NCBI GenBank assembly: GCA_903813345.2 | Contig: CAIIXF020000002.1 | Coordinates: 23,264,455 to 23,328,454 of the forward strand | Length of the DNA: 64,000 nt | Source: Owenia fusiformis | Taxonomy: Eukaryota > Annelida > Polychaeta > Sabellida > Oweniidae | Direction: 5' to 3' | Shown here: positions 62 to 57,335 of the stretch, in pieces | How the letters are laid out: every line of letters starts with the position of its first letter | Numbering within the stretch: the stretch's first letter is position 1 | Position numbers and translations under genes: made by a program | The notes under the pieces: generated by a model | Database searches by the model: none | Told to the model about the DNA's origin: nothing | Seen by the model: only the letters and a program-made list of their open reading frames with translations

Positions 62-3000
62 CTGCAACAAAAATGTGAGACTAGTTAACTCATAGCAGTA
101 GCAGTATACTATTTTAGTGAAGGGTTCTCACTAGGCTTTTTCCGGAGTCTAATTTTACATTTTTTTCACATTATTTGCAGTAAAACTGTTTAGAAAATAC
201 ATAAAACTGGATACAAACAAGGAATAGGAAGTCAGAAACCTTTTAGAAATAAATATTGGGATTAAAATAGCGAGATAATCTTAAGAAGTATGTTGAAAAG
301 TATATTAATAGGATATCTCTGATCTCACATGGGGGAGAAGTAGTCGCGATACCACGGAAAAAGTAGCCACAATACCGCTAAAAATCCGGGGTCTAAAAAT
401 TTCCTGGTGAGAACCCTGTAGTGGATCTAAACATATGGTCCACTCTTTTTCAAACAAGGCATTCAAAATGTAAAATGTCACCACCTATTTGATACAGACA
501 CCAAAAACAAGAGTTGGAGACTATAACAATATGTCACCACTTTTTGTGGTGACATAAAAACCAAATATGTATTTTGGATGAGTTTACTCACACCAGGGTG
601 AGGCCAATTTAGTTTGTGAACTCAAGGTTCAACGGATGTGTTGTATTTTAGTGTATTTTTATTAGGTAATCCAATAAAAGATAGAGATCAACGATTATTG
701 ATCTTTCTTGTGTCAATTCATTGGATTTACCATAGCTTGTCAGTGCCAGTAATTATTCATACAATAAGAAAATGGCTCTATTTCCATAAAAAAATTAACA
801 GCATTAATGCAACAAAATCCCAAGTCTGATATAGAAAATGTACATATACGAGATGATGTGATCTTTCTCAAGGAGCTCTTACATCCACTCTCCCTTTGCT
901 ATTTTTGTACATACCTCTAATTGGTTATTTCTGTCTCTGAGGGCTCTTACATCCACCCCCTCCAGTGAACCATTCAGCACCCCAACACCAGCACCACCTA
1001 TTGTTTGTAGTTGTAAATTCTGCACCTAAAAATAATAACAAATATCCTCTGTAGATTATTCTTAAAGGACACTTAAACTCATGAATCAGACCATTAGTAA
1101 ATGTTTAAATGAATTTTACAGGTTAGTGAAATTAACTAAGTCTAAACTCGTATTACACCCTATGCAGACAGAGCCTGTGGGAAATATTGGGTGCGGCGCA
1201 AATGAGCGGAGGGTGCGGAGCTAACGGTCATTTTTTAATTTAAAATTGGGATATTTCTGAAACTAAGCCGTTTTGGGACTTCAAATATATCAAGATATGT
1301 GTATTTGACACCAAATATCAATAAAATTGTGAAAATAGTAGTGCAATTCATTTTATAGCGACGCAGTATGCCTTAAACATTTCCCAGACCTATATATTTT
1401 GAGACTATCCTTTTAATACTGCGTCCCCAGCATTCATAATAAAAAATGGTGTTCAAGATACACTACCCATGCAAATTATTTTTGCATCTTGGAAGCCAGG
1501 CAGTATCTGTGTGATTTCATAAAAATTCGGAAATGTTCTTCAGATATGAGCCCCTCTAAATATTGGGTGCGGAGGTACGTTTATGGAGCTCCTCCGCACC
1601 CAATATTTAGAGGGGGCTCATATCTGAAAAACATTTCCGAATTTTTATAAAGTCACACAGATACTGCCTGGCTTCCAAGATGCAAAAATAATTTGTACAG
1701 ATAGTGTACCTTGAACACCATTTTTTATTCAGAGAATATTTCCAACCTTTGATATATTTTTCGGAAACAAAGTTCATTGACAGCAAATTTTGTGGTACAA
1801 GTTGAACATTTTGTGATGTAATTTCATATAATTCAACCCACCAATTGTTTCAGTCTTAAAATCTCAGCAGCCTGGGGATCTCTGTTGACCACTGGTTTAT
1901 TTTTAATTTTCCTTGCTCTGTCAGCATAACGCAGTGTATTTATGGACTCTTCCATGTTGCTATCTGCTGGGCTGACACAGGCAATCATTACAGTGTGGCT
2001 GTTGCCTCCTAGTGAATCTATGGAGAGATTAAAAAAAAATTATAGAGCTACTGGTTTATTCTTAATTTTCCTTGCTCTGTCAGCATAACGTAGTGTATTT
2101 ATGGACTCTTCCATGTTGCTATCTGCTGGGCTGACACAGGCAATCATAACAGTGTGGCTATTGCCTCCTAGTGAATCTATGGAGAGATTAAAAAAAAATT
2201 ATAGAGCTACTGGTTTATTCTTAATTTTCCTTGCTCTGTCAGCATAACGTAGTGTATTTATGGACTCTTCCATGTTGCTATCTGCTGGGCTGACACAGGC
2301 AATCATAACAGTGTGGTTATTGCCTCCTAGTGAATCTATGGAAAGATTAAAACAATTTTATAGAGCTACTGGTTTATTCTTAATTTTCCTTGCTCTGTCA
2401 GCATAACGTAGTGTATTTATGGACTCTTCCATGTTGCTATCTGCTGGGCTGACACAGGCAATCATAACAGTGTGGCTATTGCCTCCTAGTGAATCTATGG
2501 AGAGATTAAAACAATTTTATAGAGCTACTGGTTTATTCTTAATTTTCCTTGCTCTGTCAGCATAACGTAGTGTATTTATGGACTCTTCCATGTTGCTATC
2601 TGCTGGGCTGACACAGGCGATCATTACAGTGTGGCTATTGCCTCCTAGTGAATCTATGGAAAGATTAAAACAATTTTATAGAACTACTGGTTTATTCTTA
2701 ATTTTCCTTGCTCTGTCAGCATAACGTAGTGTATTTATGGACTCTTCCATGTTGCTATCTGCTGGGCTGACACAGGCGATCATTACAGTGTGGCTATTGC
2801 CTCCTAGTGAATCTATGGAAAGATTAAAACAATTTTATAGAACTACTGGTTTATTCTTAATTTTCCTTGCTCTGTCAGCATAACGTAGTGTATTTATGGA
2901 CTCTTCCATGTTGCTATCAGCAGGGCTGACACAGGCAATCATAACAGTGTGGCTATTGCCTCCTAGTGAATCTATGGAAAGATTAAAACAATTTTATAGA

Positions 3001-6000
3001 ACTACTGGTTTATTCTTAATTTTCCTTGCTCTGTCAGCATAACGTAGTGTATTTATGGACTCTTCCATGTTGCTATCAGCAGGGCTGACACAGGCAATCA
3101 TTACAGTGTGGCTATTGCCTCCTAGTGAATCTATGGAAAGATTAAAACAATTTTATAGAACTACTGGTTTATTCTTAATTTTCCTTGCTCTGTCAGCATA
3201 ACGTAGTGTATTTATGGACTCTTCCATGTTGCTATCTGCTGGGCTGACACAGGCAATCATTACAGTGTGGCTATTGCCTCCTAGTGAATCTATGGAGAGA
3301 TTAAAACAATTTTATAGAGCTACTGGTTTATTCTTAATTTTCCTTGCTCTGTCAGCATAACGTAGTGTATTTATGGACTCTTCCATGTTGCTATCTGCTG
3401 GGCTGACACAGGCAATCATTACAGTGTGGCTATTGCCTCCTAGTGAATCTATGGAAAGATTAAAACAATTTTATAGAGCTACTGGTTTATTCTTAATTTT
3501 CCTTGCTCTGTCAGCATAACGTAATGTATTTATGGACTCTTCCATGTTGCTATCTGCTGGGCTGACACAGGCAATCATTACAGTGTGGTTATTGCCTCCT
3601 AGTGAATCTATGGAAAGATTAAAACAATTTTATAGAGCTACTGGTTTATTCTTAATTTTCCTTGCTCTGTCAGCATAACGTAGTGTATTTATGGACTCTT
3701 CCATGTTGCTATCTGCTGGGCTGACACAGGCGATCATTACAGTGTGGCTATTGCCTCCTAGTGAATCTATGGAAAGATTAAAACAATTTTATAGAGCTAC
3801 TGGTTTATTCTTAATTTTCCTTGCTCTGTCAGCATAACGTAGTGTATATATGGACTCTTCCATGTTGCTATCTGCTGGGCTGACACAGGCAATCATTACA
3901 GTGTGGCTATTGCCTCCTAGTGAATCTATGGAAAGATTAAAACAATTTTATAGAGCTACTGGTTTATTCTTAATTTTCCTTGCTCTGTCAGCATAACGTA
4001 ATGTATTTATGGACTCTTCCATGTTGCTATCTGCTGGGCTGACACAGGCAATCATAACAGTGTGGCTATTGCCTCCTAGTGAATCTATGGAAAGATTAAA
4101 ACAATTTTATAGAGCTACTGGTTTATTCTTAATTTTCCTTGCTCTGTCAGCATAACGTAGTGTATTTATGGACTCTTCCATGTTGCTATCTGCTGGGCTG
4201 ACACAGGCAATCATAACAGTGTGGCTATTGCCTCCTAGTGAATCTATGGAGAGATTAAAAAAAATTATAGAGCTACTGGTTTATTCTTAATTTTCCTTGC
4301 TCTGTCAGCATAACGTAGTGTATTTATGGACTCTTCCATGTTGCTATCTGCTGGGCTGACACAGGCGATCATTACAGTGTGGCTGTTGCCTCCTAGTGAA
4401 TCTATGGAAAGATTAAAACAATTTTATAGAGCTACTGGTTTATTCTTAATTTTCCTTGCTCTGTCAGCATAACGTAGTGTATTTATGGACTCTTCCATGT
4501 TGCTATCAGCAGGGCTGACACAGGCAATCATTACAGTGTGGCTATTGCCTCCTAGTGAATCTATGGAGAGATTAAAAAAAAATTATAGAGCTACTGGTTT
4601 ATTCTTAATTTTCCTTGCTCTGTCAGCATAACGTAGTGTATTTATGGACTCTTCCATGTTGCTATCTGCTGGGCTGACACAGGCAATCATAACAGTGTGG
4701 CTATTGCCTCCTAGTGAATCTATGGAGAGATTAACATTTTTTAAAAAAATTTTCAGCATAGCTGAAGTAATTTTTTCAATTTTCAATTTCGTTTTGTTTT
4801 AATTGAATACCAAGTACATGTACATTAAATATTGCTAAATATATGCATCGAGACACCTTCATTTTATTTATGCCTCAGACTGAATCTACCTTATATATCA
4901 GTTCTTATTTTTACATATAAATTATCCAGCAAATTTCAAGTTGAGGCTACTTTCATTAAACGCATTATTGAAGCATAAAAAGTGAAAAAACTATTATTAA
5001 CACCTTGCCGGGCCTGTTCTATACTAGGGGTATTAGTGCTAGTTTAGAAGGCTTTTATTTTACTATATTGACCTGAGCAATATGTGACGTCATAGTGGCA
5101 GGCCAATATTGGATTAACAGCCTGGCAATGTTCCCTTGGAAATTATATATCATTAAGTGCGTATAATTTTCATTCAGTGGCAGTTCGTTCCTGCTTTTTC
5201 AGCCCTGGGCATAAACGGTGGTAATATTACCTTGCAGAAGGCGTGTCAATTTAGAGTCACGGTAAGGTATATGACTTCTCTTTTGTTTCTCATCCCCGAG
5301 GGCACTGATGACATTTCCTAAAGCTAGTAACCCCATGTTAATGTTGACTCCTGTAAACAAAAGAAAGATAGTGTGTATTAATATACTTTCATAGTCACAC
5401 TGCTTTCCACTTGTATTCGTAAATAAATATACATGTACAGCGGTGGCGGTAGGCATATATTTTTGTGAGTCATCATGACTCAGGTAGTTTCAAAAAAGTG
5501 AGTCACAAGAAAAAAACTTGAGTCAAAGCTATAAAAGTGTTTTTCTTGAGTAAAAATGCATACAAAATGTAGAAACCACATACAAAATCTATTTTTTGAT
5601 TTTGTGCATACCTTTTATTGTACTCTTATAGCACATTAACAACTAACAATTAATTAATTAGGCAATTGCAAGAAAAATGTCACTATTAATCATCTGATTA
5701 TCTGGTCCAGCGAGTCATGGGTGTGAATGGAGTGGGAGAGGAGTTTCTCCCTGTGTGGAGTTACACAAATTGGGGTCAAAGCGTTTCATGTTGAAATTCA
5801 ACATTTTTGCAATCATTCCAAAGTCTAAAACGGCAATATAAGTCCGACCACAATACTGGGCATCATTTTTAAATTGAATACGGTAGAATCTTGTAATTAT
5901 AGCTGATCAAATGAAACCGAAAGTAGATTTGTTTTCATACCTAATTTATCATCATTACCCCCCTTAATGTGCGATCGACTGGATTTTCATGTGCCCATTA

Positions 6001-9000
6001 TCTATCTTCATAGGATCAGCTTCAGATCTAGTGAATCGAAGATCTTAACTTGAGGGAGTTAATTGAAAATATTTGGTGAAAACTTACGCTAGATCGGTCG
6101 GAATTTGCGAAGGAAACTAAAGGTTCGTAAATCTAGCGTGTGAACATTCAAGGGAAGATTTTATGCGGTAATTTAGATAAATATACGATCACTAAAATCC
6201 TTAGAAGGGAGTATGAAATTAATAAATTATTGTTCAATGTTATGTTCGTTTTATTGCATTTTTGATACGCCCCCTAGCAACGTGCTTCACGAGATAAACA
6301 AATCGAGGGACCAATCAATGTTTTCAAGTTTATCATTGAATCTGAATCACAGGGCTTTAAAAATTATATGAAATACCGAAATGAGAAAATGATCGGTAGG
6401 AAGGAGGCTCGATTGCGCTGAACGAAATGTTAGATTTCCTGAATTAGCAAAATTATAAATTTGATCCATCATGTATTTTCACGTATAGGGATCAATTTAA
6501 CCAAGTACCAAGCGGGGATTTTGCATGTGAAACAAACGTGCGTCAGAAAGACTCGGTAGACAATGAATATTTGTGTCAGAGTTGCAAAAATGTGAGTAAA
6601 AAACGTAAAAAATTGCGTTAACGCCACCTCTGATGTACGAGGGTTGTCCCAGAAGTAATGCACTATATGTTCTAACTTTATCAATAATGGATATTTTTCC
6701 ATGGATTTTTTCATTATTTGTATTTGGTTAACAACTTAACATCATGCTGAATAAATTTAACAATATCCCTAACATTTTGATCATTTAAAAGAAAGAAATA
6801 TTAATAAAATAACACTTTGGATCTTTCATAATTAGAAAAATTGGAACCTGGTGGAGCACCTGTCAGCCTTGATCTAATTTTTATGCTTATTTCATACTTT
6901 TGTACAATTACTCGGGGTGGAAAATTTTCTAAGAGGCTCCGTTAAGGAAAAAATGACTTTTTGAGCTGGATGGAATTTCTGTGTATTTTCTATTCTATTA
7001 GGGTGTCCTGCATAACGGATTTCGCCTGCGAAGCATAGAACTCTTGCGAACATATCTAAATACTGGTCCGAAGAAGACATACCTTGAATTTTTTAGAAAA
7101 AATTGGCTAAAAATGGAAACTACAAGAAGTCAAAATGTTCAACTCAAACAAAGTTGTAGCTATTCTATATCAATATTTTGTGTTATGCAAGGTTTCTCAG
7201 ATGTTTCAAGACCTTCATTAGTATACTTGTGTCTAGAAATGTGACATTTAAGGACAAAATTTGGCATTTTTAATCATTTTCGCTTTCAGCATTTACATAT
7301 AGTTCCTTATATCTCAAGATTAATGCTGACTGGTTGTTGCTTTTTTAATTAAATCTGTGCTTGTACATGTGTTCTTCCATTTAAGGTATAGAAAATGTAT
7401 AGTGGACAACCAATGCTCGTATGAGAGCTCTCAGATCTCCCCTACCCCATTTATTATGGAAAATTACCGAAAAATATGAAAAAATAAAATAACTTGAAAT
7501 TATAAACTTTAACAAAGTTGTAGCTATTCTATGTCAATATTATGTGTTATTTAATGTTTTTAAGATATTTCAGAACCTATATCAGTATACAAGTGGCTAG
7601 AAATGAGACATTTAAGGACAAAACTTGGCATTTCTTTTTATCATTTTCGCTTTCAGCAGTAATATATAGTTCCTCATATCTTGAGTTTTATGCTTTCTGA
7701 TTGTTGCATTTTCAATCAAATCTTTTCTTGTGCATGTCTTCTTCCATTTAAGGTATAGAAAATGTATAGTAGACAAACAATGTTCATATCAGAGCTTTCA
7801 GATCTCCCCTACCCCATCAATTATGGAAAATAAATGAGAAATATGAAAAAATAAAATAACTTGAAATTATAGACTTTCATAAAGTTGTAGCTATTCTATA
7901 TCAATATTATGTGTTATTTAATGTTTTTAATATTTTTCAGAACTGTTTTTGGTATTCAAGTGGCTAGAAATGAGACTTTAAGAACAAAACTTGGCATTTT
8001 TAATCAATGCTGCTTTCAGCAGTAACATATAGATCCTCATATCTTGAGTTTTATGCTGACTGGTTGACGCATTTTTGATTAAATCTGTTCTTGTACATGT
8101 CTTATTCCATTTATGGTACTGAAAATGTATAGTGGACAAACAATGTTCATATTAGAGCTTTCAGATCTCCCCTACCCCATCTATTAGGGAAGATGACCGG
8201 AAAATATAAAAAAATAACTTCAAACTACCAGTATAAACTTTAACAAAGATGTAGCCATTCTTTATGTGTTATTGAATGCTATAATTATTTTTTCAGGACC
8301 TTCATTGTATACTAGTGTCGAGAAATTAGACATTTAAGAACAAAATTTGTCATTTTTCATCCATTTTTCATCATTTCCACTTTTAATAATAACATATAGT
8401 TCCTTATATCTTGAGTTTTATGCTGATTGGTTGATGAATTCTGGATCAAATCTGTTCTTTTGCCTGCCTACTTTGATTTAAGGTATTTAAAAAAGGTCAT
8501 TATATTAGAGCTTACATATCTCCCCTACTTCATTTATTCTAAAAATAACCAGAAATATAAAAACCAAACAATTCCAAAGTATAGACTTTAACAAAGTTGT
8601 CGCTATTCTAGTTCAATACTATTTTTCAGATATGTCAGGAACTTCATGAGTATACAAGTCTAAAAATTAGACATTTAAAGTTGAGTTGCAAATGGGGCGG
8701 GTATTCTCTATCTTTGTCAATTGGGCTTTTCTGGTTATAATATGTTGCAAACTGCTCATGAATCTATGCAATTATAGTAGAACACTTGGAATATATATAA
8801 AAGTAATGGAGTATAGTAGTGTGATAATGATAACCAGTGATCAAGCCATATTGATTGAATTCCCTCATATCAATTGCAATGTTGTCAAAGGCTTGGTGAT
8901 TTCCATATTACACCTAAGTGTGGTGTAATTAGGAAGTTCATGATGGATATTGGTTACTGTACAGGGTGTCCGGAAAGTAAAGATACAAATGCTCTAATTT

Positions 9001-18402: not shown

Positions 18403-18470
18403 AATCTCTAAAATGACATTTCCGCATGTCCTTCATTGTGTCTGTTCGTCCCGGGTTAAAATTTAAACTA
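18402..18470 (-). other. KIF4: Putative KIF4 5'UTR exon (3' boundary only)
   Basis: On the minus strand a strong donor (GATTG followed by GTAAGT) ends at 18402. It lies upstream of the exon carrying the start codon, whose acceptor is directly before its untranslated leader. The upstream limit and transcription start are not visible; 18470 is only nominal. Confidence 0.4.
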
Positions 18471-18997
18471 TTGAAACGAAATTGTTGTCAAATAGATTGA
18501 TAATTATCACGCGATTACTCGGGATAAAATAGCCATTTTTGAGGATAGCAGGTATCTTTGATTGATTTATATAGCGCTTGTATACACACAAAATCGTTAT
18601 TAATTGCAAACCTACTGTTCGTTGATGCAGTGTCGCAATGACGGTTAATTCCTGATACGATTTGCAATTTCGATGTTACCGGAGCTGACCGATATTTTCG
18701 TAAAATTCCAAACCTGTCTCCAATATTTTCGTAATTATGCATCAATATGGTCTAAGGGGGGTACGGGATGGTGTGTATGTATTTATAAGGTATGTATGCA
18801 TGCTTGAATCACATTCTTTATGTAATATTACCATGTTTTCGGAGTTTAATTAGTTCCGCATGTTGAAACCTGCTGAACGATTAAATGATCGCAACAAGGG
18901 CAAAATCATCATGGAAGTTAGACCTAGCCGGGGCCATAAGACATGTCAGATAAGAAACGAGGCCCAGGCTAGGTCTAATGTTGTTGGACTATAAAAG

Positions 18998-21741: not shown

Positions 21742-22007
21742 TTCGCTGAACTATAATATATTGGCTTCATTGCATGTCAAGAATACTTTCAAATTGTATG
21801 CATGTAAGATTTTGCATCAGTGAATTTTAAAATCCTGACAGATGTTAAGCCTAATGATATATAATCTACGCTACTTTGGATTATAATCCAACCATCAATA
21901 TCCTCAATTTCTAGTAGCGTACATGTTATAACCATTTTCATTTTAGAATGGGTACCCACAAAAGATTTTCAATGAGTTCATTTAATTCCAGAAATTTAAA
22001 AAGCACA

Positions 22008-22055
22008 ATGGGGAAGAAGATCAAGAAAGAAGACAAAGCCCCTCCAGAAGATGTG
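22008..22055 (+). CDS. ARMC3: ARMC3 coding exon 1 (start)
   Basis: ATG opens MGKKIKKEDKAPPEDV, then donor GTGAGT. Length 48, phase 0. The leader upstream is probably spliced. Confidence 0.9.
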
Positions 22056-31000: not shown

Positions 31001-34000
31001 GGATACACGTAATTTGAAATTAGATGATTCTGAGAAAAAGTATCATTAATGATTGAAAAGAAAAAGAAAAAAGCATGATAAGAAAGAATCCAGTTCTCAG
31101 TTTTCCTTTTGTTTATTGCTTGTGTTGAATTTATTTCCGCCACTTTATCACCCATGTGCCTTAAGCAATTACTCTCCATTTTTCAGAAGATACGGTTGTC
31201 CATGAGTTTGCTGCACTTGGTCTCTCCAATATGTCAGCTGACTTCAGTAGCAAGGTGACCATTCAGGAGCAAGATGGTATGGAACCTCTTATCAGATGCC
31301 TTGCCTCACATGATCCTGATGTGCAGAAAAATTCAATTGAGGCTATCGCTCTTATGTTGCAGGTAACTATAAACTTGACTTGGGATTTGTAAAGTTGATT
31401 TTATTAAAGGTAACTTTCATGCGTAATGGAATATAAAAATTAGAGATCATCCTTCTTTTTGATTCTATTTTGTGTATAGAGTATGGCCTGAATCTTTAAT
31501 GTGAACACCTCTCATCCGAACATTTCTCAATTTTGTGAACACTTCACTTTCAGTTCTGTCTTCTCTATTGACTTCCATGCATTGAGAATGTGAACACCTG
31601 CTAATCAGAGAAAATTTGAGAAAATTTGGCTCGCCCCAGTGGTGTTCAAATAAGACAGGTTTAACTGAACATAAATATATGCATTGCAGGATTACCAAAG
31701 TAGAACTGCTGTAAGGGAATGGAATGGTCTTGAGCCAATCATGCATTTAATGAAGTCAGAGTATGCAATAATACAGGAGTTTGCCTTTATATTGTAGGAT
31801 TACCAAAGTAGGACTGCTGTAAGGGAATGGAATGGTCTAGAGCCAATCATGCATTTAATGAAGTCAGATTATGCAATAATACAGGAGTTTGCCTTTATAT
31901 TGTAGGATTACCAAAGTAGGACTGCTGTAAGGGAATGGAATGGTCTTGAGCCAATCATGCATTTAATGAAGTCAGAGTATGCAATAATACAGAGTTTGCC
32001 TTTATATTGTAGGATTACCAAAGTAGAACTGCTGTAAGGGAATGGAATGGTCTTGAGCCAATCATGCATTTAATGAAGTCAGAGTATGCAATAATACAGG
32101 AGTTTGCCTTTATATTGTAGGATTACCAAAGTAGAACTGCTGTAAGGGAATGGAATGGTCTTGAGCCAATCATGCATTTAATGAAGTCAGAGTATGCAAT
32201 AATACAGGAGTTTGCCTTTATATTGCAGGATTACCAAAGTAGGACTGCTGTAAGGGAATGGAATGGTCTAGAGCCAATCATGCATTTATTGAAGTCAGAG
32301 TATGCAATAATACAAGAGTTTGCCTTTATATTGTAGGATTACCAAAGTAGAACTGCTGTAAGGGAATGGAATGGTCTAGAGCCAATCATGCATTTAATGA
32401 AGTCAGAGTATGCAATAATACAGGAGCTGGCCCTGCTTGCACTGATCAGAGCTACGCAAGATGGTATGAAATAGATTATTATAAGTTTTCAGATATTGTA
32501 TGAGTAGGTATTATGAATTGAATGGTGAAAGACACTTTGGTTTGTTCGAAATATTGTTTTCACATTTTCAACATCTTGAGTACCAAAAATGGCACATGAA
32601 TCTGTCACAAATAACATCATCTTGGAAATATGAGTAAGTTACATGCTGTAACCTGTAACTAAGCAACTAAGTAACTAAGCAACAATTTTTAGTTCTATTT
32701 GTGTCATATTGGACCTTTACATGTAAATAAGAGCCAGTGGCCCTATTTTTTTTGATTTGACCTCGTCTTTAGATAGTTGTGTCAGAAATATCACTGGCTG
32801 TTATTGTATAGATGGCACAATAATAAATGATATATATTATATATAACAATTATATTTATTTCAGCTGAAAACAGAGCTGCCCTGAGGGAGTTGGAAGTTT
32901 TGAGAGAGTTTATTGAGTTTGTGGGGAAACCTGAATATAATGATCTTCATGTACATGCTCTACATGTACTCTCAAACTGTCTCGAGGATCCCGAGAGCAT
33001 GGAGGTATGTAAAAAGCTCATTGAAGGCCCTGACAATGGCTGACATATGAAAAGTTTTAAAGTATTTTGATAGCCTGATTTAGATATTACTTTCATTCAA
33101 CTTTGAAAAATGGTTTGCAATCATCACAAATAATTGTGAGGGTTCATGTTTTTATATTTCTTTAATTTTTGATGGTACAATCAATTAAGTGATAAGAACA
33201 AATTGTAGTTCAGAATATATTTAGAATCAGACATCTCAAATTACTTTTTAATTCACTTATTACAGTAGAAATCCATAGTAAACATGTTTTATATCTCAGG
33301 ATTTCTGTTTTAAATACACTGTATGTGCAAATGCTTACAGGGTGAGACATATTCACTGATCTACAGGAGTACATGTTCAATGTGTTTAATAGCTGATTAT
33401 TTTAACATTTACATGTACTTTTTTTTACATGTACATATGTATGTGCAGGGTGCTTGTGCCCCATAAGAATTCCAAGCCTAGTTAATAAATATCAATCAAT
33501 TGTGATTTTTTGAATTTCTTAGCAAATCCGTGAATCCGGAGGTCTACAAAGGTTTGTTGCGTTTATTACTGATGTCACCCCTCCAGAGGAAGAAACCAAG
33601 AAAGAGAAAAAGAAAGACAAAGGCAAGAAGAAAGGAGACGAAGGTAATAAATACGTAATTAAAATTTAATTAGCCAATTATTATCTGTTCATGATTGTTG
33701 GTTATTTATTGTTGAATCTTATGAATCTGTTACATTTAGACAAATAGATATTCGTGTTTTTTTAATGGTTTATTATTATTCAATTCTACGATTTGCGTCA
33801 ATGTCCAATATTGAATTCTGATTGGTTAAGACATTTTCTAATATCATCTCATCTTTCTGTTACCATGGCAACAGGTGTACACATGAAGCATTTTAACATT
33901 TTACTTATGCTATCGTACCATGTGATCCAATACTTCCAGGCCCATAGCTTTTGCCAAAAGGGGTTCACTTTTCAAAAAAGTCCAGGGGGAGTTCACTTTG

Positions 34001-52000: not shown

Positions 52001-55000
52001 GGTGCAATTCTAAGTGAGAAACATCAGAATGCGTCCATCCCATTAATTTGGCCAAATACATTGCATGAAACTGGCGTAAGCTTAACTTGGTACGTCCCCC
52101 TTTCTCTGGTAAATCATGACTATATTTTTCGGAGTAATGGGTTTCGGACAACTGGGGTGTACCCTTAAGATTTGGGGATTGTTACAATTTTGAAAATTCG
52201 CGGAGGTCAAAGCCGACATTTGCGGGACTTCGCGGGACATTGCGGGACACGCGAATTAGACTAATTTTGATCGAATTCGTGGGATAATCCCGCCATTCGC
52301 GGGACACTTGACAGCTCTGTATTACCCACTTCTTACATGTACCATTGATACTGCATTTGTAATAATAACCAGTACTTGTTTTTCCCAGCATGTATTCTTG
52401 TCATTTAAATTAAACCCCCATACTGAGAATTTTCTTGAATTTAATTACCAACACTAGTTGAAACTTAAAAACGGCTCAAAAAGTGCAGAACAACATGTAC
52501 CATGGTATAGTTTTAGTTTTGGATCACCTTACTTGAATCTTTCTACCAGAACAGAGTTTGGGATGTGTCAAATATTTTTTCTCGGTACAGTATCCCATTG
52601 GATTATAATCAGGCCCGTAGCCAGGGGGGGGGTTCGGGGGTTCGGGTTCTGGTAGAAAGATTCAAGTAAGGTGATCCAAAACTAAAACTATACCATGGTA
52701 CATGTTGTTCTGCACTTTGGCCAAATTTGCCAAAGTGAACCCCCCTCCCTAGAATTTTTTGGAAAAGTGAACCCCCCTTGGAAAATTCTGGCTACGGGCC
52801 TGATAATATTGGCCTTAATTAAGTTCCAACTTCCCCTTCCCCACTACCTTTTTTACAAATAGGCTATAACTATTAGCTGTATACTAGTAGGTTACATGCT
52901 AAGTATATATCTATAACTAGACAGCTGTATACTAGAATTTACAATAAACTAGATAGCTATATACATGAGCTAGATAATATATAGTGATAGCTGTATCCTA
53001 GATAGTTACATACTGTGTAGCTGAATACAGAAATATATGTACTAGATATATAGTTACGTATACAGGATGCATGCCTATAAATTTAAATGATTATTTCAAA
53101 ATTTTATATCCCAACTTTTCCAAAGATTGGTTTAGACAATCATATTTTTGTATTGACAAGTTATAATTAATTTGTTTCCCAAATGTTTATGTTTATGCTT
53201 GTACATTCCATCAGCTTTGTGCATATTGTATACATGCAAAGGAATTAAGGAATTTTTGTTAGATTAAGCAGACAAATGAACATCTATATTATGGCACTAA
53301 TGAGATAATTATGGCCTTGTGTGGCCTTGAGCTTATTAGGAAACGTCTAAAATAATTCCATGTCCTTATTAGGAAATCTCTGAAATATTTATTTGTCCTT
53401 ATTAGGAAATCCCGTGCTGCACGTGAGAGAGAAGAACGTCAGAGAGAGGAGGAACTGCGTGCTCAGCTTCTCCGTGAAGAGGAGGCTGCAATGTCATCTC
53501 AACCATTTGTCACTCCCGCTGACCCAACCCTGTGTAAATACATCGAGGATGTTCAAGAGAGAGTTCTGCCTCTGATGAGCACTAAGTATCAAGTCATTGC
53601 TTTGGCAGAGTGAGTAGATATAGCTATCTGGGTTTCTCATAGTAGCACCCATGCTACCATGATTTGGCTGTGTCATTTACTTGCGTTCGTTCCATTCCCA
53701 AGGTTCAAATTCATATGTTCATTGCATTCTTATTCAATCACATACTTTTCGTATCTCCTTCATGGCAATCGTCAATTCCATTACATTATGGAATCTAACT
53801 GTTCGAGCACCATCCACATTATGGCGCTTCAAACAGTTGTGCCATCCACATTATGGCGCAATCGCTCAAGCACCATCCACATTATGGCGCTTTTAGACTC
53901 GAGCACCATCCACATTATGGCGCTCCCAGACTAGCACCATTCACATTATGGTGCATTCCGAACCAAGCACCATCCACATTATGGGGCTAACAGACCTAAG
54001 CACCATCCACATTATGGCGCTTTCAGACTAACGCCGCACCATCCACATTATGGTGCTTTCAAATATAGCACCATCCACATTATGGGGCTACTGATTTCAT
54101 TTGCTATGAAGGAGAATTCAACGTTCATTCACATGTCGCAAACGAAGCGACTTCATACGCAAGAGAGTGTCACAGTCAATTCATGAGATGCCCAGATGCC
54201 AACATGTTTGTATATATTTATATTAAATGATAAATATTCATTATAACATATACATATATTTGTTTGTTTCCTATAAACCCTGTGTAAATACATCGAGGAT
54301 GTTCAAGAGAGAGTTCTGCCTCTGATGAGCACTAAGTATCAAGTCATTGCTTTGGCAGAGTGAGTAGATATAGCTATCTCTATATTTCAATCTCATACCA
54401 AGTTATTGACTGATTCGACATTTAGGGAGTAGAAAATATCTGGCTTAATTTTTGAGAGAGAACTTTAATGGTGAGGAGAGGATATTAGACAGGGTTTCTA
54501 TTCACTTTTGATTATGGTTTGGGATTGTTGGGGTTTTCCTGATGACTGGTGTACACTTTGATGTTTCCTTAATCTTGCTGGGTTTTGTAACAATTTTTGG
54601 TCTTTTCCTTTGGCACTTGTACAAACTGTACATTTTTAGATGTAGCACAGTGTAAGTGAAATATTACATGTAGCTATTGATAATAGTGCTCTCTCCATCC
54701 ATAACTCAACATTTTCCCCTCAGAAAATCTCAGATCTCTAGCCATTTTTTCACACCAGGATTTCAACCTGTATTTATTAACTAACTTTTCCTTATAGATA
54801 CGTCTCAGATAAGATGGGTGGACCAATTGCGCGTGGACAGCTGGCAAATTTCAGCTATGAGCTACCTATCAGTCAAATTAAATATGATCTCAAATCCAAT
54901 GTGATTCCTATAGGACTCATCAAGACTGGGATTCACTATCATAGGGCACTACTGTTTAAGGTAGGGATTCATTTCTATTATCACTTGGCGATATAATTTA

Positions 55001-57335
55001 AGGTAAAAATAGTTTTAGGGAGGTAGTTCTCCTATTTCTAGACAGTAGAACACCTCTGTAAGTGAAACACCTCACAAGTGGAACAGTGTTTTATAGTCCC
55101 ATGGCCTATCTACTCCATGTTAAGTGGAACACCTCCCAAGTGGAACACTTTTTTGTGGCCCCAAGGGTGTTCCACTTACACAGGCTCTGCTGTATTTACT
55201 CGCCTGATTGCTAGCAGTTAAAATTTCCTTAAAAATGTGTGGCTTAAACTATTTATTTTATTATATATTTATAAACTGTATTGTTATTTTATAATGGATT
55301 GGATTTTGAATAATTTTGTCAAAATATATGATACTAAATAATGACCAACATTGATAAATGCTTACTATCAATTTAAATGTTATTTTTCTTATTTTAGGCA
55401 TTAGCTGACAGGATTGCTGTCAGTTGTAGTCTGATGAGAGGGGAATATAACAGATCCTGTTCTAAATCAATTTAAATGTTATTCATCTTATTTTAGGCAT
55501 TAGCTGACAGGATTGCTGTTAGTTGCAGTCTAATGAGAGGGGAATATAACAGGTCCTGGAATGAGGTCATGCTCACTGACGATGATGATACGGTTAGTAT
55601 TGTTTTGATGACTTAAGGTTGTTATACACTGGCAAAAGATGACTCCATGCTGTATAAAACTATTTATCCCATACTTGGACGTGTTACAGGTACATAAAGC
55701 CGGTTTGTAAAAACTTATATTTTCATCAGCGGGCAGATATAGCTTTACGTCCCGCTCCGAGTGGGCAGATATAGTATATCTGCCCGCTACGTCATAATCG
55801 CCGCTCGCATATTTGTTCATAATTTGTAACGTTCGCATAATGACTGTAAACGACAATGGAAAAAACACAGACAATCAAGATTTGTTTGATGGTTTAAAAA
55901 GGGAAGGAGTATCCACTTAATCAATCAAAAATTCGAGAAAATAAATGTGGGAATATTTGTGAGAACAGGAAAATTCGCCCACGGCCAAGAAAACAAAACT
56001 GGACGTGAATATTCTAAAATATTTCCACGATTGAACAATGTGAACCAGATGACCAAGATTGGTATGGGATAAACATATTATCCTATAGTCGGTTCAGGAT
56101 ATTGGGATTATCCCTTGGCCAATATAATATATTTTCCCTCGGGACCTACGGCCCTCGGGCAAATATATTATATTGGCCTCGGGATAATCCCAATATCCTG
56201 AACCTCATATAGGATAATCTCTATGTACATCATTTCTTGTATTTTTTAGAACTTTGGTGTATTCTGCATGTTATTGATTGATGGGTCTTTGATTGGCTGG
56301 ATAACAAATTTTCACATTTTACAGCCAATTAGTTTTTATTTAAAATATTTTCTCTTTCAAAAAATCTGTTTTGTCAATGCAATGTATATCCCTGGATAGA
56401 CAGGATCTAAATAAAAAAAATGTTTAAATAAAATGTTTGATGTGAGCATTTAACAAATTATTATTTCAACTTTTTGTTATGTTTTTAGCCTGGAGCCCCA
56501 AAGTTCCCACCTAAGAGCTACATAGTTGACTTAATACATGAACCTGGCAGACTGATGCTAGCAGATAGCAATGAGGCTGAACAATACAAGAGATTATAGT
56601 GCTCTTTACAAATAATTATGTTGGATGATACAAGGGATTATAGTGGACTATACAGATGATTATGTTGGATTATACAAGTGATTTTACTGAACCATACAAA
56701 TGATTATGTTGGATTATATAAGGGATTATAGTGGACCATACAAATGATTATGTTGGATTATACAAGGGATTATAGGGGATAATATAAGCCGTTGTAATGG
56801 ACAATACATTTGATTATCTCAGACACTTCAAGCAGCTATAGAGGACTAATCAAATAATTCAGAGGTCGATACAAATGATTATAGTGGTCAATCGAAATGA
56901 TTATAGTGGGTGATACAAATGATTATAGTGGTCAACCAATATGATTATAGTGGACGATACAAATGTTTATCGAGTGGCTTATCCTAGTATCAGGATGTTA
57001 TAAAAAGCTATCATAGTCAGATTGTATGAGCTATGTATTTATTATCATATAGAATGGTCATTAACAGGAAATATTTGGTAATGTTTTAAGTTAAATGTAT
57101 ATAGTGTAAATTTATCTTGTATAAAAATAATAGAGAGTGTGCTGGCCATTGCTGGTTTCTACACATTTTGTAGATTTTTACAATTTCATCCGTCCAATAT
57201 TGTGTATTTTTATGATTTCTACTCACTGTTAGGAAGTGTATACAATATTTTCTATTCAGTAACACTCATTGTTTTGGATTATATAATGTGTATAATTTGT
57301 ATATATAGAATAAACTCATTGGAAGTAAGAATACA
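22008..57335 (+). CDS. ARMC3: ARMC3, armadillo repeat-containing protein 3 (complete coding region, 24 coding exons)
   Basis: The spliced coding sequence runs 22008 to 56599 and all phases agree, giving 906 residues against about 870 in vertebrates. The N-terminus MGKKIKKED is the family signature. Residues about 17-630 form armadillo repeats (VVLMLESPEEDVLAKACEAI, VRRNASMALGV, IPALIEPL, LPPLIALLQSGNDEVRRSAS). A lysine/glutamate-rich insert near 290-318 interrupts them. A charged linker (about 700-760) precedes a C-terminal EDR1-like domain (about 770-905) with SNVIPIGLIKTGIHYHRALL, ALADRIAV and GEYNRSWNEVML. ARMC3 is known from sperm and ciliated tissue, probably as a scaffold. Oddities: truncated duplicate exons before coding exons 6 and 23 and after 21, a 1,063-bp satellite in intron 1, and a nested antisense sulfotransferase. 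The 3'UTR ends near AATAAA at 57309. Confidence 0.92.
22099..22315. mobile_element. MITE with CAGGCCCGTAGCCAGG ends, copy 1
   Basis: Perfect terminal pairing of CAGGCCCGTAGCCAGG with CTGGCTACGGGCCTG. The interior repeats GGGGTTCACTT. Other copies at 33937, 45627 and 52610. Confidence 0.8.
22328..29167. repeat. 1,063-bp satellite, 6.4 head-to-tail copies in ARMC3 intron 1
   Basis: Copies start at 22328, 23391, 24454, 25517, 26580, 27643 and 28706 (last one partial). Wherever I compared copies they were identical. Each contains TATTATGACGTCATAACG with a palindromic TGACGTCA and open frames of 116 codons (+) and 103 codons (-) that lack recognisable similarity. No terminal inverted repeat seen at the array ends. 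Either very recent expansion, strong homogenisation, or an assembly effect. Confidence 0.95.
29168..29682 (+). other. ARMC3 intron 1, 3' remainder
   Basis: AT-rich, with loosely repeated GGAGAATAATAT segments. No gene or clear element seen. Confidence 0.4.
29683..29800 (+). CDS. ARMC3: ARMC3 coding exon 2
   Basis: Acceptor AATTGTAG; encodes FDALLVESHQAATVVLMLES and AKACEAIYKFVEKC. Ends in phase 1 at GTAAGC. Confidence 0.95.
30181..30306 (+). CDS. ARMC3: ARMC3 coding exon 3
   Basis: Encodes DENKKVLLDLGAVDPLLRLA and IVRRNASMALGVMTAH, an armadillo repeat. A similar intron end with a decoy ATATCTCTAG lies about 60 bp upstream of the true acceptor. Confidence 0.95.
30378..30542. mobile_element. 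MITE of the GTGGAACACC family
   Basis: Begins AAACCTGTAAAGTGGAACACC-like sequence and ends GTTCCACCTACACAGGTTC, an inverted match. Similar to the copy at 55045. Confidence 0.65.
30772..30843 (+). CDS. ARMC3: ARMC3 coding exon 4
   Basis: Acceptor AATTTTCAG; encodes AEVRKCLRKREEAVPAFIAL and LAPE. Phase 1 at both ends. Confidence 0.95.
31187..31362 (+). CDS. ARMC3: ARMC3 coding exon 5
   Basis: Encodes DTVVHEFAALGLSNMSAD and GMEPLIRCLASHDPDVQKNS, armadillo repeats three to four. Ends in phase 0 at GTAACT. Confidence 0.95.
31690..32336 (+). repeat. Tandem array of six truncated ARMC3 exon-6 copies, each with a 3' splice site
   Basis: Copies begin at 31690, 31798, 31906, 32013, 32121 and 32229 (unit 108 bp, one of 107). 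Each has an acceptor (TGCATTGCAG, TATATTGTAG or TATATTGCAG), then the first 90 bases of exon 6 from DYQSRTAVREWNGLEPI to IIQE, then TTTGCC into the next acceptor. None has a donor. In frame, most copies end in a stop formed by the TAG of the next acceptor. The copy at 32121 instead meets CAG, so it reads through into the next copy. Confidence 0.95.
32337..32463 (+). CDS. ARMC3: ARMC3 coding exon 6, complete copy
   Basis: Encodes DYQSRTAVREWNGLEPIMHL and KSEYAIIQELALLALIRATQ, then donor GTATGA in phase 1. Only this last copy has the armadillo helix after IIQE and a donor. Confidence 0.92.
32865..33004 (+). CDS. ARMC3: ARMC3 coding exon 7
   Basis: Encodes AENRAALRELEVLREFIEFV and LHVLSNCLEDPESME. 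Acceptor TTATTTCAG, donor GTATGT, ends in phase 0. Confidence 0.95.
33005..33522 (+). other. ARMC3 intron
   Basis: AT-rich intron without recognisable features apart from a short ACATGTAC-rich stretch near 33410. Confidence 0.4.
33523..33643 (+). CDS. ARMC3: ARMC3 coding exon 8, lysine-rich insert
   Basis: Encodes QIRESGGLQRFVAFITDVTP, then a charged run of mostly Lys, Glu and Asp. The charged segment has no counterpart in the vertebrate protein I remember. Ends in phase 1. Confidence 0.9.
33937..34075. mobile_element. MITE with CAGGCCCATAGC ends, copy 2
   Basis: CAGGCCCATAGCTTTTG at the left is mirrored by TTAGCTATGGGCCTG. Same GGGGTTCACTT interior as the copy at 22099. Confidence 0.7.
34189..34194 (+). 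CDS. ARMC3: Putative 6-nt ARMC3 microexon 9
   Basis: A good polypyrimidine acceptor (GTCCTGTTTTAG) is followed after six bases by the strong donor GTAAGT. It keeps phase 1 and would add two acidic residues to the charged insert. Confidence 0.45.
34666..34674 (+). CDS. ARMC3: Putative 9-nt ARMC3 microexon 10
   Basis: CACAATTTCAG acceptor, then GCAAAAAAG and donor GTACTG. Phase 1 is kept; adds Ser-Lys-Lys to the lysine-rich insert. The donor is weaker than at exon 9. Confidence 0.4.
34920..35205. repeat. Imperfect palindrome in ARMC3 intron
   Basis: GTTGATTTTTCAAATCACC near 35000 pairs with GGTGATTTGAAAAATCAAC near 35160, and ATCTTGTAGTTGAAAA with TTTTTCAACTACAAGAT. The centre is near 35085. 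Confidence 0.75.
35800..35880 (+). CDS. ARMC3: ARMC3 coding exon 11
   Basis: Encodes AEPRMAASVLQTIPGSVLGG and KTPYISE. Phase 1 at both ends. It belongs to the linker between armadillo repeats, so its protein match is weak. Splice sites are good. Confidence 0.7.
35881..36912 (+). other. ARMC3 intron
   Basis: No exon with matching phase recognised. A TTTCTACAG near 36656 could be an unused acceptor. A G-run lies at about 36807. Confidence 0.4.
36913..37014 (+). CDS. ARMC3: ARMC3 coding exon 12
   Basis: Encodes GKGGHDKDEPGPPSNTLPEV, then KRHACIAIARAAKN, where the armadillo helices resume. Phase 1 at both ends. Confidence 0.9.
37090..37715. repeat. 17-bp minisatellite, about 36 units
   Basis: Runs of TAGGTGTTCACTATATG alternating with TAGGTGTTCACTATAAA variants. 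The array abuts coding exon 13 with about 65 bp to spare. Confidence 0.9.
37781..37933 (+). CDS. ARMC3: ARMC3 coding exon 13
   Basis: Encodes AENRKILHETEAEKMLILLL and VQCAAAQGLGVMCENLL. Acceptor GTTATTACAG, donor GTAAGT, phase 1 at both ends. Confidence 0.95.
37955..38400. repeat. Tandem triplication containing a TGTCACCACC-family segment
   Basis: About 2.5 copies of a roughly 165-175-bp unit share AACAAATGGCAGGTGGTGAT and GACTTGAAGTA. The unit matches the 3' half of the MITE family seen at 57.4-58.2 kb. Confidence 0.75.
38715..39773 (-). CDS. Carbohydrate sulfotransferase, intronless, nested antisense in ARMC3
   Basis: A 352-residue type II membrane enzyme that should transfer sulfate from PAPS to a glycan in the Golgi lumen. 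A basic N-terminus (LRLRRPRC) is followed by one membrane segment (about 9-26). The 5'-phosphosulfate loop is TYRSGSTFL (74-82) with YAFEPL just after; the 3'-phosphate-binding strand is LLLVRDPRGIYNSR (189-202). Layout and length match the GlcNAc/Gal/GalNAc 6-O-sulfotransferase group (CHST1-7); the acceptor sugar cannot be inferred. There are several N-glycosylation sequons. Start chosen as the ATG at 39773, which directly precedes the signal anchor. The whole gene is one exon, complete and unbroken, inside ARMC3 intron 13 on the opposite strand. A retrogene or an old intronless family member are both possible. Confidence 0.88.
   Translation of the reverse strand: MLRLRRPRCLLLIILVAGTINIALILRTTNRKHCVTSSKIERFQTGVPSTSQNNEREHLLTKRVNTTKIIIMATYRSGSTFLSELFKQNEKIFYAFEPLKPLIRTWDRTDLIQKYGAIILRDILNCDVGILSHIAKGWHYWMVRYNYTEYTFETTYQMCKGKKLRTVKIISLDNLENLSSYFGNDTAILLLVRDPRGIYNSRNHLYVEPLENITNRENRLNSMKDTCYNFVTNMKFVEKINKLPRREKAGMPLIKQIAYEDVANNPILKAKEIYKELNIEFDDHISEWIQHNTNYNGGPNDKDLNDPQSTKRNSSATVNKWSHQLKKSQIYDLQNITDCAEVIKMLNYDLVI
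39774..42052 (+). other. ARMC3 intron 13 remainder
   Basis: Upstream flank of the nested sulfotransferase, then AT-rich intron. Contains a diverged tandem duplication at 40601-40915. No other exon seen. Confidence 0.5.
40601..40915. repeat. Diverged tandem duplication, two units of about 155 bp
   Basis: Both halves share AAATGACAG, GAGAACTTCCA, AATAAAATCTCAGATA and TTTGAATGACTATCAATG in the same order. Confidence 0.7.
42053..42161 (+). CDS. ARMC3: ARMC3 coding exon 14
   Basis: Encodes EGIEPLLKLIKVDNPDLKDA and SLALANLTTGNMNNC, a canonical armadillo repeat. Donor CA/GTAAGT, ends in phase 2. Confidence 0.95.
42550..43610. repeat. 26-bp minisatellite interrupted by a LINE
   Basis: Units of CACAAACTTACGCTACACAA plus CTTCCA run from about 42550 to 42980 and resume at about 43549. 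The ACTTCC unit is broken by the LINE insertion. Confidence 0.85.
42979..43548 (+). pseudogene. 5'-truncated LINE with poly(A) tail inserted in a minisatellite
   Basis: Two overlapping frames (42982-43203 and 43169-43504) give the C-terminus of a non-LTR polyprotein. They include EHENCKYC, then TYEHFFVNC, the Cys/His motif that follows the reverse transcriptase. The frames are offset, so it is broken. AATAAATGAATAAAAAAAA closes the element before the minisatellite resumes. Confidence 0.8.
43657..43833 (+). CDS. ARMC3: ARMC3 coding exon 15
   Basis: Encodes EIVNMGGIVPLIDLLSETKE and AIILTNMATDEGM. Acceptor TTATTTCAG, donor AG/GTAGG, phase 2 at both ends. Confidence 0.95.
44163..44372 (+). CDS. 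ARMC3: ARMC3 coding exon 16
   Basis: Encodes SKVCLAVASYVGDYDSRVEF, GGLPPLIALLQSGNDEVRRS and the next helix. Phase 2 at both ends. Confidence 0.95.
44554..44678 (+). CDS. ARMC3: ARMC3 coding exon 17
   Basis: Encodes GLDILQEIQQSSTRRNGFVD and AFERLLDSKLSAKYALTG, the end of the armadillo array. Ends in phase 1. Confidence 0.95.
44825..44960. mobile_element. TGTCACCACC-family MITE, intronic copy
   Basis: Contains AGTGGTGACATATTGTTATA, then AACAAATGGCAGGTGGTGAC. It ends about 28 bp before coding exon 18; a segment duplication precedes it. Confidence 0.6.
44989..45127 (+). CDS. ARMC3: ARMC3 coding exon 18
   Basis: Encodes SSNLIFDGFFDVGQLRPGTK and KRPVLLINAEPE, a conserved segment after the armadillo repeats. 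Ends in phase 2 at GTAAGT. Confidence 0.95.
45128..45975 (+). other. ARMC3 intron with a CAGGCC-type MITE
   Basis: A diverged MITE (45627-45924) occupies the 3' third; the rest is AT-rich without features. Confidence 0.5.
45627..45924. mobile_element. MITE with CAGGCCTATAGTCAGG ends, copy 3
   Basis: CAGGCCTATAGTCAGG at the left is mirrored imperfectly by TGGCTACAGGCCTG at the right. Confidence 0.6.
45976..46077 (+). CDS. ARMC3: ARMC3 coding exon 19
   Basis: Encodes QIKDLTPSEADMMKDSSKTS, then a Ser/Thr/Arg-rich linker. Phase 2 at both ends. Confidence 0.85.
46588..46593 (+). CDS. ARMC3: Putative 6-nt ARMC3 microexon 20
   Basis: TTTTGATATTTCAG, then AAGCTC and the strong donor GTAAGT. Phase 2 is kept and two serines would be added to the serine-rich linker. 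Confidence 0.45.
46850..47400. repeat. Degenerate tandem repeat, about 117-bp period
   Basis: CACAGTTATCACAT, CACTTAGATATTTTAGCAAT and CATTTCACATACACTTTCAC recur in order several times. T-rich, in intron 20. Confidence 0.7.
47478..48456. mobile_element. Tc1/mariner-superfamily element with about 180-bp terminal inverted repeats
   Basis: Ends read TACAGGGTGACCCAAAAAAA and its complement at 48437-48456, flanked by TA. The ends stay paired for about 180 bp. On the plus strand, decayed transposase remnants include SLDLNAPDFYIWGY near 48080, the block before the third catalytic acid. There are stops in between, so it is not active. Confidence 0.8.
48457..49047 (+). other. ARMC3 intron 20, plain stretch
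   Basis: AT-rich, with a short direct repeat of ATGCCTAATATGGTGTTTTT near 48720-48770. No other feature. Confidence 0.4.
49048..49783. mobile_element. Foldback MITE, about 740 bp with long inverted arms
   Basis: The left end GGTATCGATATGGTGAAC is mirrored by GTTCACCATATTGATACC on the right. Inner arms pair through GGTTGATTTTAAAAAAGTAT and its complement. The centre is near 49415. Confidence 0.75.
49784..50404 (+). other. ARMC3 intron 20, plain stretch
   Basis: Contains a short triplication of TAGTACTGCAATAATA (50150-50215) and recurrent TTTCACATTTTGCTA. No exon recognised. Confidence 0.4.
50405..52325. mobile_element. Composite repeat with CGCGGGA-rich ends
   Basis: Both flanks are rich in TTCGCGGGATTTTGC-type repeats (50430-50600 and 52195-52312) and end in TGTCAACCCC and TTGACAGCTCTG. 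A second element (51016-52167) lies inside. GC content is clearly higher than the surroundings. Confidence 0.5.
51016..52167. mobile_element. Element with AGTTGTCCGAAACCCA inverted ends
   Basis: CCCAGTTGTCCGAAACCCAA at 51021 is mirrored by TGGGTTTCGGACAACTGGGG at 52138. The left end carries a second partial copy (TTTTCCGAAACCCAGTTGTT). A minus-strand frame 52151-51873 is open but unrecognised. Confidence 0.65.
52481..52717. repeat. Perfect 72-bp inverted repeat straddling a MITE end
   Basis: 52481-52552 and 52646-52717 are exact reverse complements (from AAGTGCAGAACAACATGTAC to TCTTTCTACCAGAAC). The second arm lies inside the CAGGCCC MITE that begins at 52610. Confidence 0.9.
52610..52802. 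mobile_element. MITE with CAGGCCCGTAGCCAGG ends, copy 4
   Basis: CAGGCCCGTAGCCAGG is paired with TGGCTACGGGCCTG. Unlike other copies it contains 72 bp of inverted flanking DNA. Confidence 0.8.
52803..53405 (+). other. ARMC3 intron 20, 3' end
   Basis: TAGATAGCTATATAC-type low-complexity sequence at 52870-53060, then a short repeated TCCTTATTAGGAAA just before the acceptor (53361 and 53396), giving a decoy TTATTAG/GAAATC-like site. Confidence 0.5.
53406..53609 (+). CDS. ARMC3: ARMC3 coding exon 21
   Basis: Encodes a charged helix (SRAAREREERQREEELRAQL), then PADPTLCKYIEDVQERVLPL and ALAE, leading into the EDR1-like domain. Donor GA/GTGAGT, ends in phase 2. Confidence 0.92.
53808..54093. repeat. 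Minisatellite of short hairpin units, about 9 copies
   Basis: AGCACCATCCACATTATGGCGCT or a close variant recurs with 5-12-bp variable spacers. Each unit can fold: AGC(A)CCAT pairs with ATGG(T/C/G)GCT. Confidence 0.85.
54276..54379 (+). pseudogene. Partial duplicate of ARMC3 coding exon 21 with donor
   Basis: The 104 bp are identical to the last 80-odd bases of exon 21 plus 21 bases of its intron (AACCCTGTGTAAATAC through GAGTGAGTAGATATAGC). No AG acceptor precedes it, so it has a 5' splice site but no 3' splice site. Confidence 0.9.
54798..54960 (+). CDS. ARMC3: ARMC3 coding exon 22
   Basis: Encodes YVSDKMGGPIARGQLANFSY, KSNVIPIGLIKTGIHYHRAL and LFK, the core of the EDR1-like domain. Ends in phase 0 at GTAGGG. 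Confidence 0.95.
55045..55196. mobile_element. MITE of the CAGTAGAACACC / GTGGAACACC family
   Basis: CAGTAGAACACCTCTGTAAG on the left is mirrored by CTTACACAGGCTCTGCTG on the right, with GTGGAACACCTC repeated inside. Confidence 0.75.
55398..55496 (+). pseudogene. Truncated duplicate of ARMC3 coding exon 23 with its own 3' splice site
   Basis: Acceptor CTTATTTTAG, then ALADRIAVSCSLMRGEYNRS, then a junction with an in-frame TAA before the second acceptor. The unit is 99 bp. It differs from the complete exon at four positions, all silent (Val, Cys, Leu, Arg). No donor. Confidence 0.93.
55497..55592 (+). CDS. ARMC3: ARMC3 coding exon 23, complete copy
   Basis: Encodes ALADRIAVSCSLMRGEYNRS, WNEVMLTDDDDT and donor GTTAGT. 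Phase 0 at both ends. Confidence 0.95.
55593..56488 (+). other. ARMC3 last intron with two inverted-repeat elements
   Basis: One element spans about 55663-56073 (TTTATCCCATACTTGG against CCAAGATTGGTATGGGATAAA) with GGGCAGATATAG hairpins inside. A second palindrome is at 56078-56218. Confidence 0.5.
56078..56218. repeat. 141-bp palindrome
   Basis: TCAGGATATTGGGATTATCC pairs with GGATAATCCCAATATCCTGA, and GGCCAATATAATATATT with its complement. The tip is near GACCTACGGCCC. Confidence 0.85.
56489..56599 (+). CDS. ARMC3: ARMC3 coding exon 24 (stop)
   Basis: Encodes PGAPKFPPKSYIVDLIHEPG, then RLMLADSNEAEQYKRL and TAG. This matches the conserved C-terminus of the family. Confidence 0.95.
   Translation, partial: PGAPKFPPKSYIVDLIHEPGRLMLADSNEAEQYKRL
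56586..56960 (+). repeat. 22/44-bp tandem repeat at the ARMC3 stop codon and 3'UTR
   Basis: Units such as ACAAGGGATTATAGTGGACT start at 56586, 56630, 56674, 56718 and 56762; each 44-bp unit is two related 22-mers. The first unit contains the final codons and the stop (ACAAGAGATTATAG). Confidence 0.85.
57309..57314 (+). terminator. ARMC3: ARMC3 polyadenylation signal
   Basis: AATAAA about 710 bases after the stop codon, in an otherwise geneless stretch; the most likely 3' end. Confidence 0.55.

Follow-up and report, generated by a model that had tools for sequence, protein, structure and literature searches.

How does an exon come to be preceded by as many as 17 near-identical copies of its own start, each with an acceptor, and which of these copies is used? 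The question is raised by a 64,000-nucleotide stretch of the Owenia fusiformis genome (hereafter the window; GCA_903813345.2, contig CAIIXF020000002.1, forward-strand positions 23,264,455 to 23,328,454), where two genes lie head to head: a KIF4-like kinesin gene on the minus strand, with its start codon near 16409, and ARMC3 on the plus strand, with its start codon at 22008. An earlier note on this DNA had described the host genes as divergently transcribed neighbours, and both gene models agree. The spliced ARMC3 model comprises 23 exons (22008-56599) with an intact reading frame of 904 residues, and was identified as ARMC3 because Pfam returned Arm repeats and an EDR1/CTR1/ARMC3 domain. Its best database match is the Owenia fusiformis protein P0001 (872 residues), identical in 872 of 904 columns, with a 32-column gap that corresponds to predicted exons 9-11 alone. 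The 411 residues of the KIF4-like gene encoded in the window are 100% identical to Owenia protein P0121 (1273 residues). In the splice model the exon that begins with its start codon encodes the first 16 residues, the Pfam kinesin motor match covers residues 14-337, and exon k8 (5231..5350, minus strand) was placed both by the splice model and by tblastn with a human KIF4A motor sequence as the query. We infer that P0001 and P0121 come from the published Owenia annotation, which is reported to have RNA support for 31,678 of 31,903 transcripts (PMC9977687).

The locus is rich in repeats, with 29% of positions 905-57000 lying in local direct repeats, or 19% without a 1063-bp tandem array in ARMC3 intron 1 (22328-29167, 6.4 copies, 100% identical), whose uniformity suggests a very recent origin, homogenisation or an effect of the assembly. 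ARMC3 intron 12 carries a 17/34-bp minisatellite (37096-37719, 36.7 copies of 17 bp). An inverted pair (6948-8622 and 11312-12985, ~82% identical), each arm of which contains 364-367-bp tandem units, lies between KIF4 exons k7 and k8, and inverted 197-bp ends (47474-47670 and 48264-48460) are 89% identical; judging by a motif, the sequence that they enclose resembles a decayed mariner-type transposase. A sulfotransferase reading frame without introns (38715-39782, minus strand) is nested in ARMC3 intron 13, and a reverse-transcriptase fragment (17114-17680, minus strand) lies between the two genes. The ARMC3 model also predicts micro-exons of 6 nt (34189-34194) and 9 nt (34666-34674) and an 81-nt exon (35800-35880), all of which preserve the frame and are missing from annotated P0001.

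The largest border array, array A (1891..4734, minus strand), lies downstream of k8 and repeats a 159-bp unit composed of the first 127 bp of KIF4-like exon k9 and 32 bp of the intron end (TRF x17.9, 97%). Its 18 acceptor copies are spaced by 159 bp in 16 of 17 intervals and by 158 bp in one, and consist of 17 truncated copies followed by a complete one, which alone continues to the rest of the exon and the real donor (complete k9, 1842..2017, minus strand, supported by the splice model and P0121). Three further arrays of this type are found on the plus strand in ARMC3. In array B (31683..32426), a 108-bp unit of ~90 bp of exon 6 and 18 bp of intron end (TRF x6.9, 97%) provides seven acceptor copies at intervals of 108 bp (5 of 6) or 107 bp (one), six of them truncated and the last complete; the complete exon 6 (32337..32463) is open in the spliced model and identical to P0001 there. 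Since only 18 bp of intron-like sequence separates these copies, the branch point of the working acceptor of array B probably sits within a truncated exon copy. Array C (55367..55558), at exon 22, has a 99-bp unit (TRF x1.9, 93%) and two acceptor copies, the first truncated, with its exonic start at 55398, and the second complete (exon 22, 55497..55592, splice model and P0001). Array E (53332..53411), which is absent from the earlier note, has a 33-bp unit at exon 20 (TRF x2.4) and three acceptor copies with exonic starts at 53340, 53373 and 53406, the last of which begins the complete exon (53406..53609, splice model and P0001).

A fifth event, D, concerns a donor. A segment that runs from the final 84 bp of exon 20 across the donor into 20 bp of intron (53526..53629, plus strand) recurs 750 bp downstream in intron 20 (54276..54379, plus strand) as a partial exon end with an orphan donor at 54359. 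The two 104-bp copies are 100% identical, their donors score the same (5.6), and the 646 bp between them contain an older minisatellite (75-81% matches). Because the copies diverge immediately on both sides, with no tandem continuation, event D is not a simple tandem duplication. Events A to D had been reported in the earlier note with counts of 18, 7, 2 and one extra donor copy, and with acceptor-type units of 159, 108 and 99 bp, all divisible by three; these counts, places and lengths were confirmed, as was the geometry of truncated copies upstream of a complete one in A, B and C.

Reading frames and proteins both bear on which copy is used. Among the 26 truncated copies (A 17, B 6, C 1, E 2), 25 run into an in-frame stop before the complete exon, so that reading-through from them could add nothing to the full protein. 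The stop comes 45 codons in for all 17 truncated copies of A and after 25 codons in C, and lies ahead of the complete exon for all six in B, where copy 5 traverses copy 6 before its stop and copy 3 is frameshifted by a 1-bp deletion. In E the copy at 53340 runs to a stop, while that at 53373 stays in frame through the complete exon and would add 11 residues. At the level of annotation, the segments of k9, exon 6 and exon 22 occur once each in P0121 and P0001, both of which carry the terminal-copy continuation and so agree with the terminal-copy model; for these three segments, no part of an upstream copy was found retained in the annotated proteins via a new donor. The proposal in the earlier note that such arrays may be tolerated is thus borne out in that the annotated proteins are normal.

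Splice-site strength was scored with a matrix built from the window's own sites (27 acceptors and 26 donors) rather than a published model; the AG/GT check was passed at 61 of 63 junctions, with two model edges displaced by a single base, and the scores were trained on 53. Copies in arrays A, B, C and E keep an intact acceptor AG. Acceptor scores of truncated and terminal copies were 0.9-6.0 and 4.1 in A, 4.0-11.0 and 9.5 in B, and 13.0 and 10.5 in C, so a stronger terminal acceptor was rejected as a general selector; it would fit only E, where the terminal copy is strongest (5.5, against -0.8 and 2.9). Donors separate the copies more clearly in three of the arrays. The best donor-like site in truncated copies scored 2.5-2.8 in A (17 of 17; real donor 5.1), 1.9 in C (real donor 5.3), and -2.7 and -5.5 in E (real donor 5.6), against 5.4 (three copies) or 7.1 (three copies) in B, whose real donor scored 8.0. 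In k9, exon 22 and exon 20 the real donor is itself weak, close to or below the minimum of the 26 other donors in the window (minimum 5.4, 10th percentile 7.0, median 8.1). These scores suggest that the terminal copy is marked by the exon's own donor, which fits exon definition, although B is less clear and the donor argument is weak there.

Array A also retains traces of its turnover. One type of intron tail is found at the edges (units 1, 3, 16 and 17 of 17; P=0.002, for a statistic picked once the data had been seen), with a second type throughout the interior, and all four combinations occur at 7 of 28 site pairs in a four-gamete test. This edge and interior structure, with its recombined variants, is as expected of unequal exchange and minisatellite turnover, in array A only. 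Against unequal exchange, neighbouring units differ at 2.0 sites compared with 2.2 on average, and no gradient of similarity toward the terminal copy was observed among the units compared.

The earlier note had taken the local recurrence of these events as a sign of a special process, which the placement test does little to uphold in so repeat-filled a locus. Of the 24 tandem arrays, four have a unit that spans exactly one junction; random placement of the 24 founder units on a collapsed 43-kb sequence with 63 junctions gave 1.78 on average (P=0.093). The arrays had been merged, and their units chosen, by hand from TRF rows plus one BLAST pair; E was counted among them and D left out. P was 0.059 for units of at least 30 bp and 0.022 for units of 30-200 bp; with placements over two or more junctions excluded, the values were 0.115 (all), 0.077 (at least 30 bp) and 0.022 (30-200 bp). 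Similarity of this size is not due to chance, but junction-spanning is just weakly commoner than under random placement, and we take the recurrence evidence as weak because the locus was chosen for this pattern. All 4 border arrays, compared with 5 of the 20 others, have a unit length divisible by three (P=0.012, post hoc; 0.020 with one unit taken as 33 instead of 97 bp). Frame preservation was rejected as the cause, given the 158- and 107-bp intervals and the stops in 25 of 26 copies; with such indels and stops, the frame is not kept.

Variants among the copies carry the least expected signal. In A and B together, 8 of 9 variants carried by two or more copies are silent (P ~7e-5 against 0.235), whereas those private to one truncated copy comprise one silent change in five, three non-silent changes and one frameshift (Fisher P=0.023 for the silent proportions of the two classes); both variants private to the terminal copy of A are silent. 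The bias toward silent changes claimed in the earlier note holds for the truncated copies of A before this split (6 of 8 silent, P=0.0035; 0.011 when two linked sites count as a single event) and for C (4 of 4, P=0.004; 0.026 if one copy is constrained), and does not reach significance in B alone (3 of 5, P=0.065; 3 of 6 with the frameshift, P=0.11). Recent changes in truncated copies thus seem free of constraint, and old ones look as if they derived from a constrained exon; non-silent changes may also be scarce because the copies themselves are weakly constrained.

Exchange with a selected terminal copy was considered as a sufficient cause of the silent bias and rejected, since simulations in a single lineage and in populations of 200 fell short. 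With selection on the terminal copy only, single-lineage runs gave silent proportions of 0.23-0.31 with exchange and 0.22-0.26 without for all variants, and 0.25-0.29 for shared variants without forced conversion. Forced one-way conversion raised the shared proportion to 0.35-0.48 but left only one to two variable sites. In a population of 200 with each variant counted once, 0.28 of shared variants were silent with selection and 0.22-0.24 without, and this value of 0.28 indicates that the simple version of exchange is not enough. Other population runs (N=200, 300 and 1000), in which each variant entered the tally repeatedly, were set aside as too noisy: the silent proportion of shared variants ranged over 0-0.63 under selection and 0.16-0.53 in its absence. 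Seeding of the arrays from diverged functional alleles in a variable marine species is a plausible conjecture. The contrast between shared and private variants, which the simulations did not reproduce, is an unexplained residue.

Taken as a whole, the observations are probably best explained by ordinary tandem duplications across one splice junction, tolerated since the last copy alone is used. A small duplication unit would happen to straddle one junction, and each further duplication would leave acceptors with partial exon copies upstream of one complete exon, the geometry seen in these arrays. Judging from the annotation and the splice scores, the cell would use the complete copy only, since no other acceptor has the exon's own donor within a normal exon distance, as under exon definition, and the truncated copies would be orphan acceptors read as intron. 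Duplications that are harmless in this way could grow and turn over by unequal exchange like minisatellites, as the structure and variants of array A suggest, while event D may have arisen separately, as a repair-type copy of an exon end with its donor. The silent bias would most likely record descent from, and exchange with, functional exon alleles in the population rather than use of the truncated copies, and this is the weakest step. Counting against the account as a whole are the 8 silent variants among 9 shared, the excess of units divisible by three and the slight excess of border arrays with units of 30-200 bp (P=0.022).

Several explanations would give the truncated copies a function. 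They might tune expression as decoys that bind early splicing factors and slow intron removal, or divert transcripts to stop-containing products, and be kept for that. Such a role would fit the intact AGs in arrays A, B, C and E, several of whose acceptors outscore the terminal one, and the silent bias among shared variants; a known precedent is OGT, where splicing decoys detain an intron (PMC12017769). The OGT decoy exon, however, is described as also having weak donors whose mutation abolishes the effect (PMC12017769), whereas no donor above 2.8 is present in the copies of A, C and E (10th percentile of genuine donors 7.0), those of B reaching 5.4 or 7.1; moreover, intact AGs are expected anyway at 93-97% identity, and the decoys carry a frameshift and private non-silent changes. 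We regard this reading as improbable. A narrower form, in which the orphan acceptors (17 in KIF4, 6 in ARMC3) are kept to regulate splicing of the host intron and need enough exon that spreading variants are mostly silent, seems about as improbable, but, if true, it would define a class of regulatory 'orphan acceptor arrays' made by tandem duplication, perhaps common in Owenia. The copies could instead be a nursery of introns or mini-exons, as in potato RdRp (PMC4974935), with a cryptic donor in a truncated copy pairing with the next acceptor to yield short exons. Array B has a site, GCT/GTAAGG (the stroke marking the cut), 21 nt in, that would yield in-frame exons of 7 residues. Its score of 5.4, taken from one copy, is close to those of the genuine k9, exon 22 and exon 20 donors; a site of 7.1 is present in three of the six B copies, but it lies just 10 nt in and is out of frame. 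This, too, is improbable: the segment is present once in the annotated protein, identical sites lie inside the working exon, where splicing must ignore them, and A, C and E hold no comparable donor.

Constraint on the truncated copies as coding sequence, for example in a motor-only KIF4 product, would suit the position of the stop in A, since a reading frame entered from a decoy stops 45 codons into the exon, beyond the Pfam kinesin match, and the rarity of non-silent changes among shared variants (8 of 9 silent) could reflect weak constraint. The frameshift and stop structure of array B and the single silent change among five private decoy variants make it highly unlikely, as does P0121, in which the truncated ending is absent (matches within one protein length range). 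A process acting genome-wide in Owenia and favouring duplications across splice sites would account for five events, four of them acceptor-type, at 63 modelled junctions of two genes (a junction scan flagged 4 of 63 and missed E). Set against P=0.09 for the 24 arrays (0.02-0.12 by subset), at a locus selected for its pattern, it is very unlikely. An assembly artefact is hardly credible. The 1063-bp array, 100% identical over 6.4 copies, is unusual in this respect, but the published assembly, if it is this one, is reported to have used PacBio reads with an N50 of ~26-31 kb and optical maps (PMC9977687), a read length that far exceeds array A (2.8 kb), and the copies differ by shared and private variants.

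If tolerated duplication with use of the last copy is the right account, the KIF4 exon is a natural extreme of acceptor choice, with 18 nearly identical acceptors within 2.7 kb, in which acceptor strength does not favour the copy used and the presence of its own donor does. Copies of an exon start can, moreover, accumulate in genes whose annotated proteins look normal. Among the papers that literature searches listed, no title or opening of an abstract concerned multi-copy arrays of this kind, and narrower searches returned nothing; this is not a claim that such arrays are absent in print.

Among known systems, splicing decoy exons (OGT and others) resemble these arrays in having intronic splice sites that are rarely or not used in mRNA, but they are described as holding both a 3' and a 5' site and going with intron retention (PMC12017769), whereas the copies of A, C and E offer no plausible 5' site. 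Event D is closer to two other cases. In OCT1 an 8-bp donor duplication (rs35854239) is reported to give 0.3-0.6% alternative transcript in liver (PMC8137991) and, like that of event D, the duplicated donor is largely tolerated; minigenes gave 38-52% alternative transcript and liver expression fell (PMC8137991), so a duplicated donor is not always silent. The OCT1 copy is 8 bp and adjacent, while that of event D is 104 bp and 750 bp away. Short copies placed nearby are also characteristic of the repair-mediated duplications of vertebrates described by Pace et al. 2009, 4 of 824 of whose donor sequences were partial exon/intron (PMC2671141). Event D, with 104 bp at 100% identity and no tandem continuation, fits that description, though these duplications were described in vertebrates and event D is known from this one sequence. 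For the acceptor arrays, the duplicate in potato RdRp crosses the same kind of border, with the 3' side of an intron and the 5' side of an exon, but there a cryptic donor made a new intron (PMC4974935), of which the annotated Owenia proteins give no sign.

The closest likeness is to human CBS 844ins68, whose unit, as in A, B, C and E, is an intron end, a splice site and the first part of an exon. The distal site is reported to be strongly favoured there and carriers to be normal (PMC2630376), with traces of another transcript (PMC1334203); the source speaks of duplicated 'donor' sites, which by geometry are acceptors (PMC2630376). Use of the distal copy with a normal protein is likewise what P0001 and P0121 agree with, at the level of annotation here, while RNA was measured for CBS. 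The upstream CBS copy also hides a harmful variant, which the authors propose is passed to working exons by conversion (PMC2630376). CBS carries one extra copy, compared with up to 17 here, and its 68 bp are not divisible by three. The Owenia arrays look like a known kind of tolerated border duplication, here scaled up.
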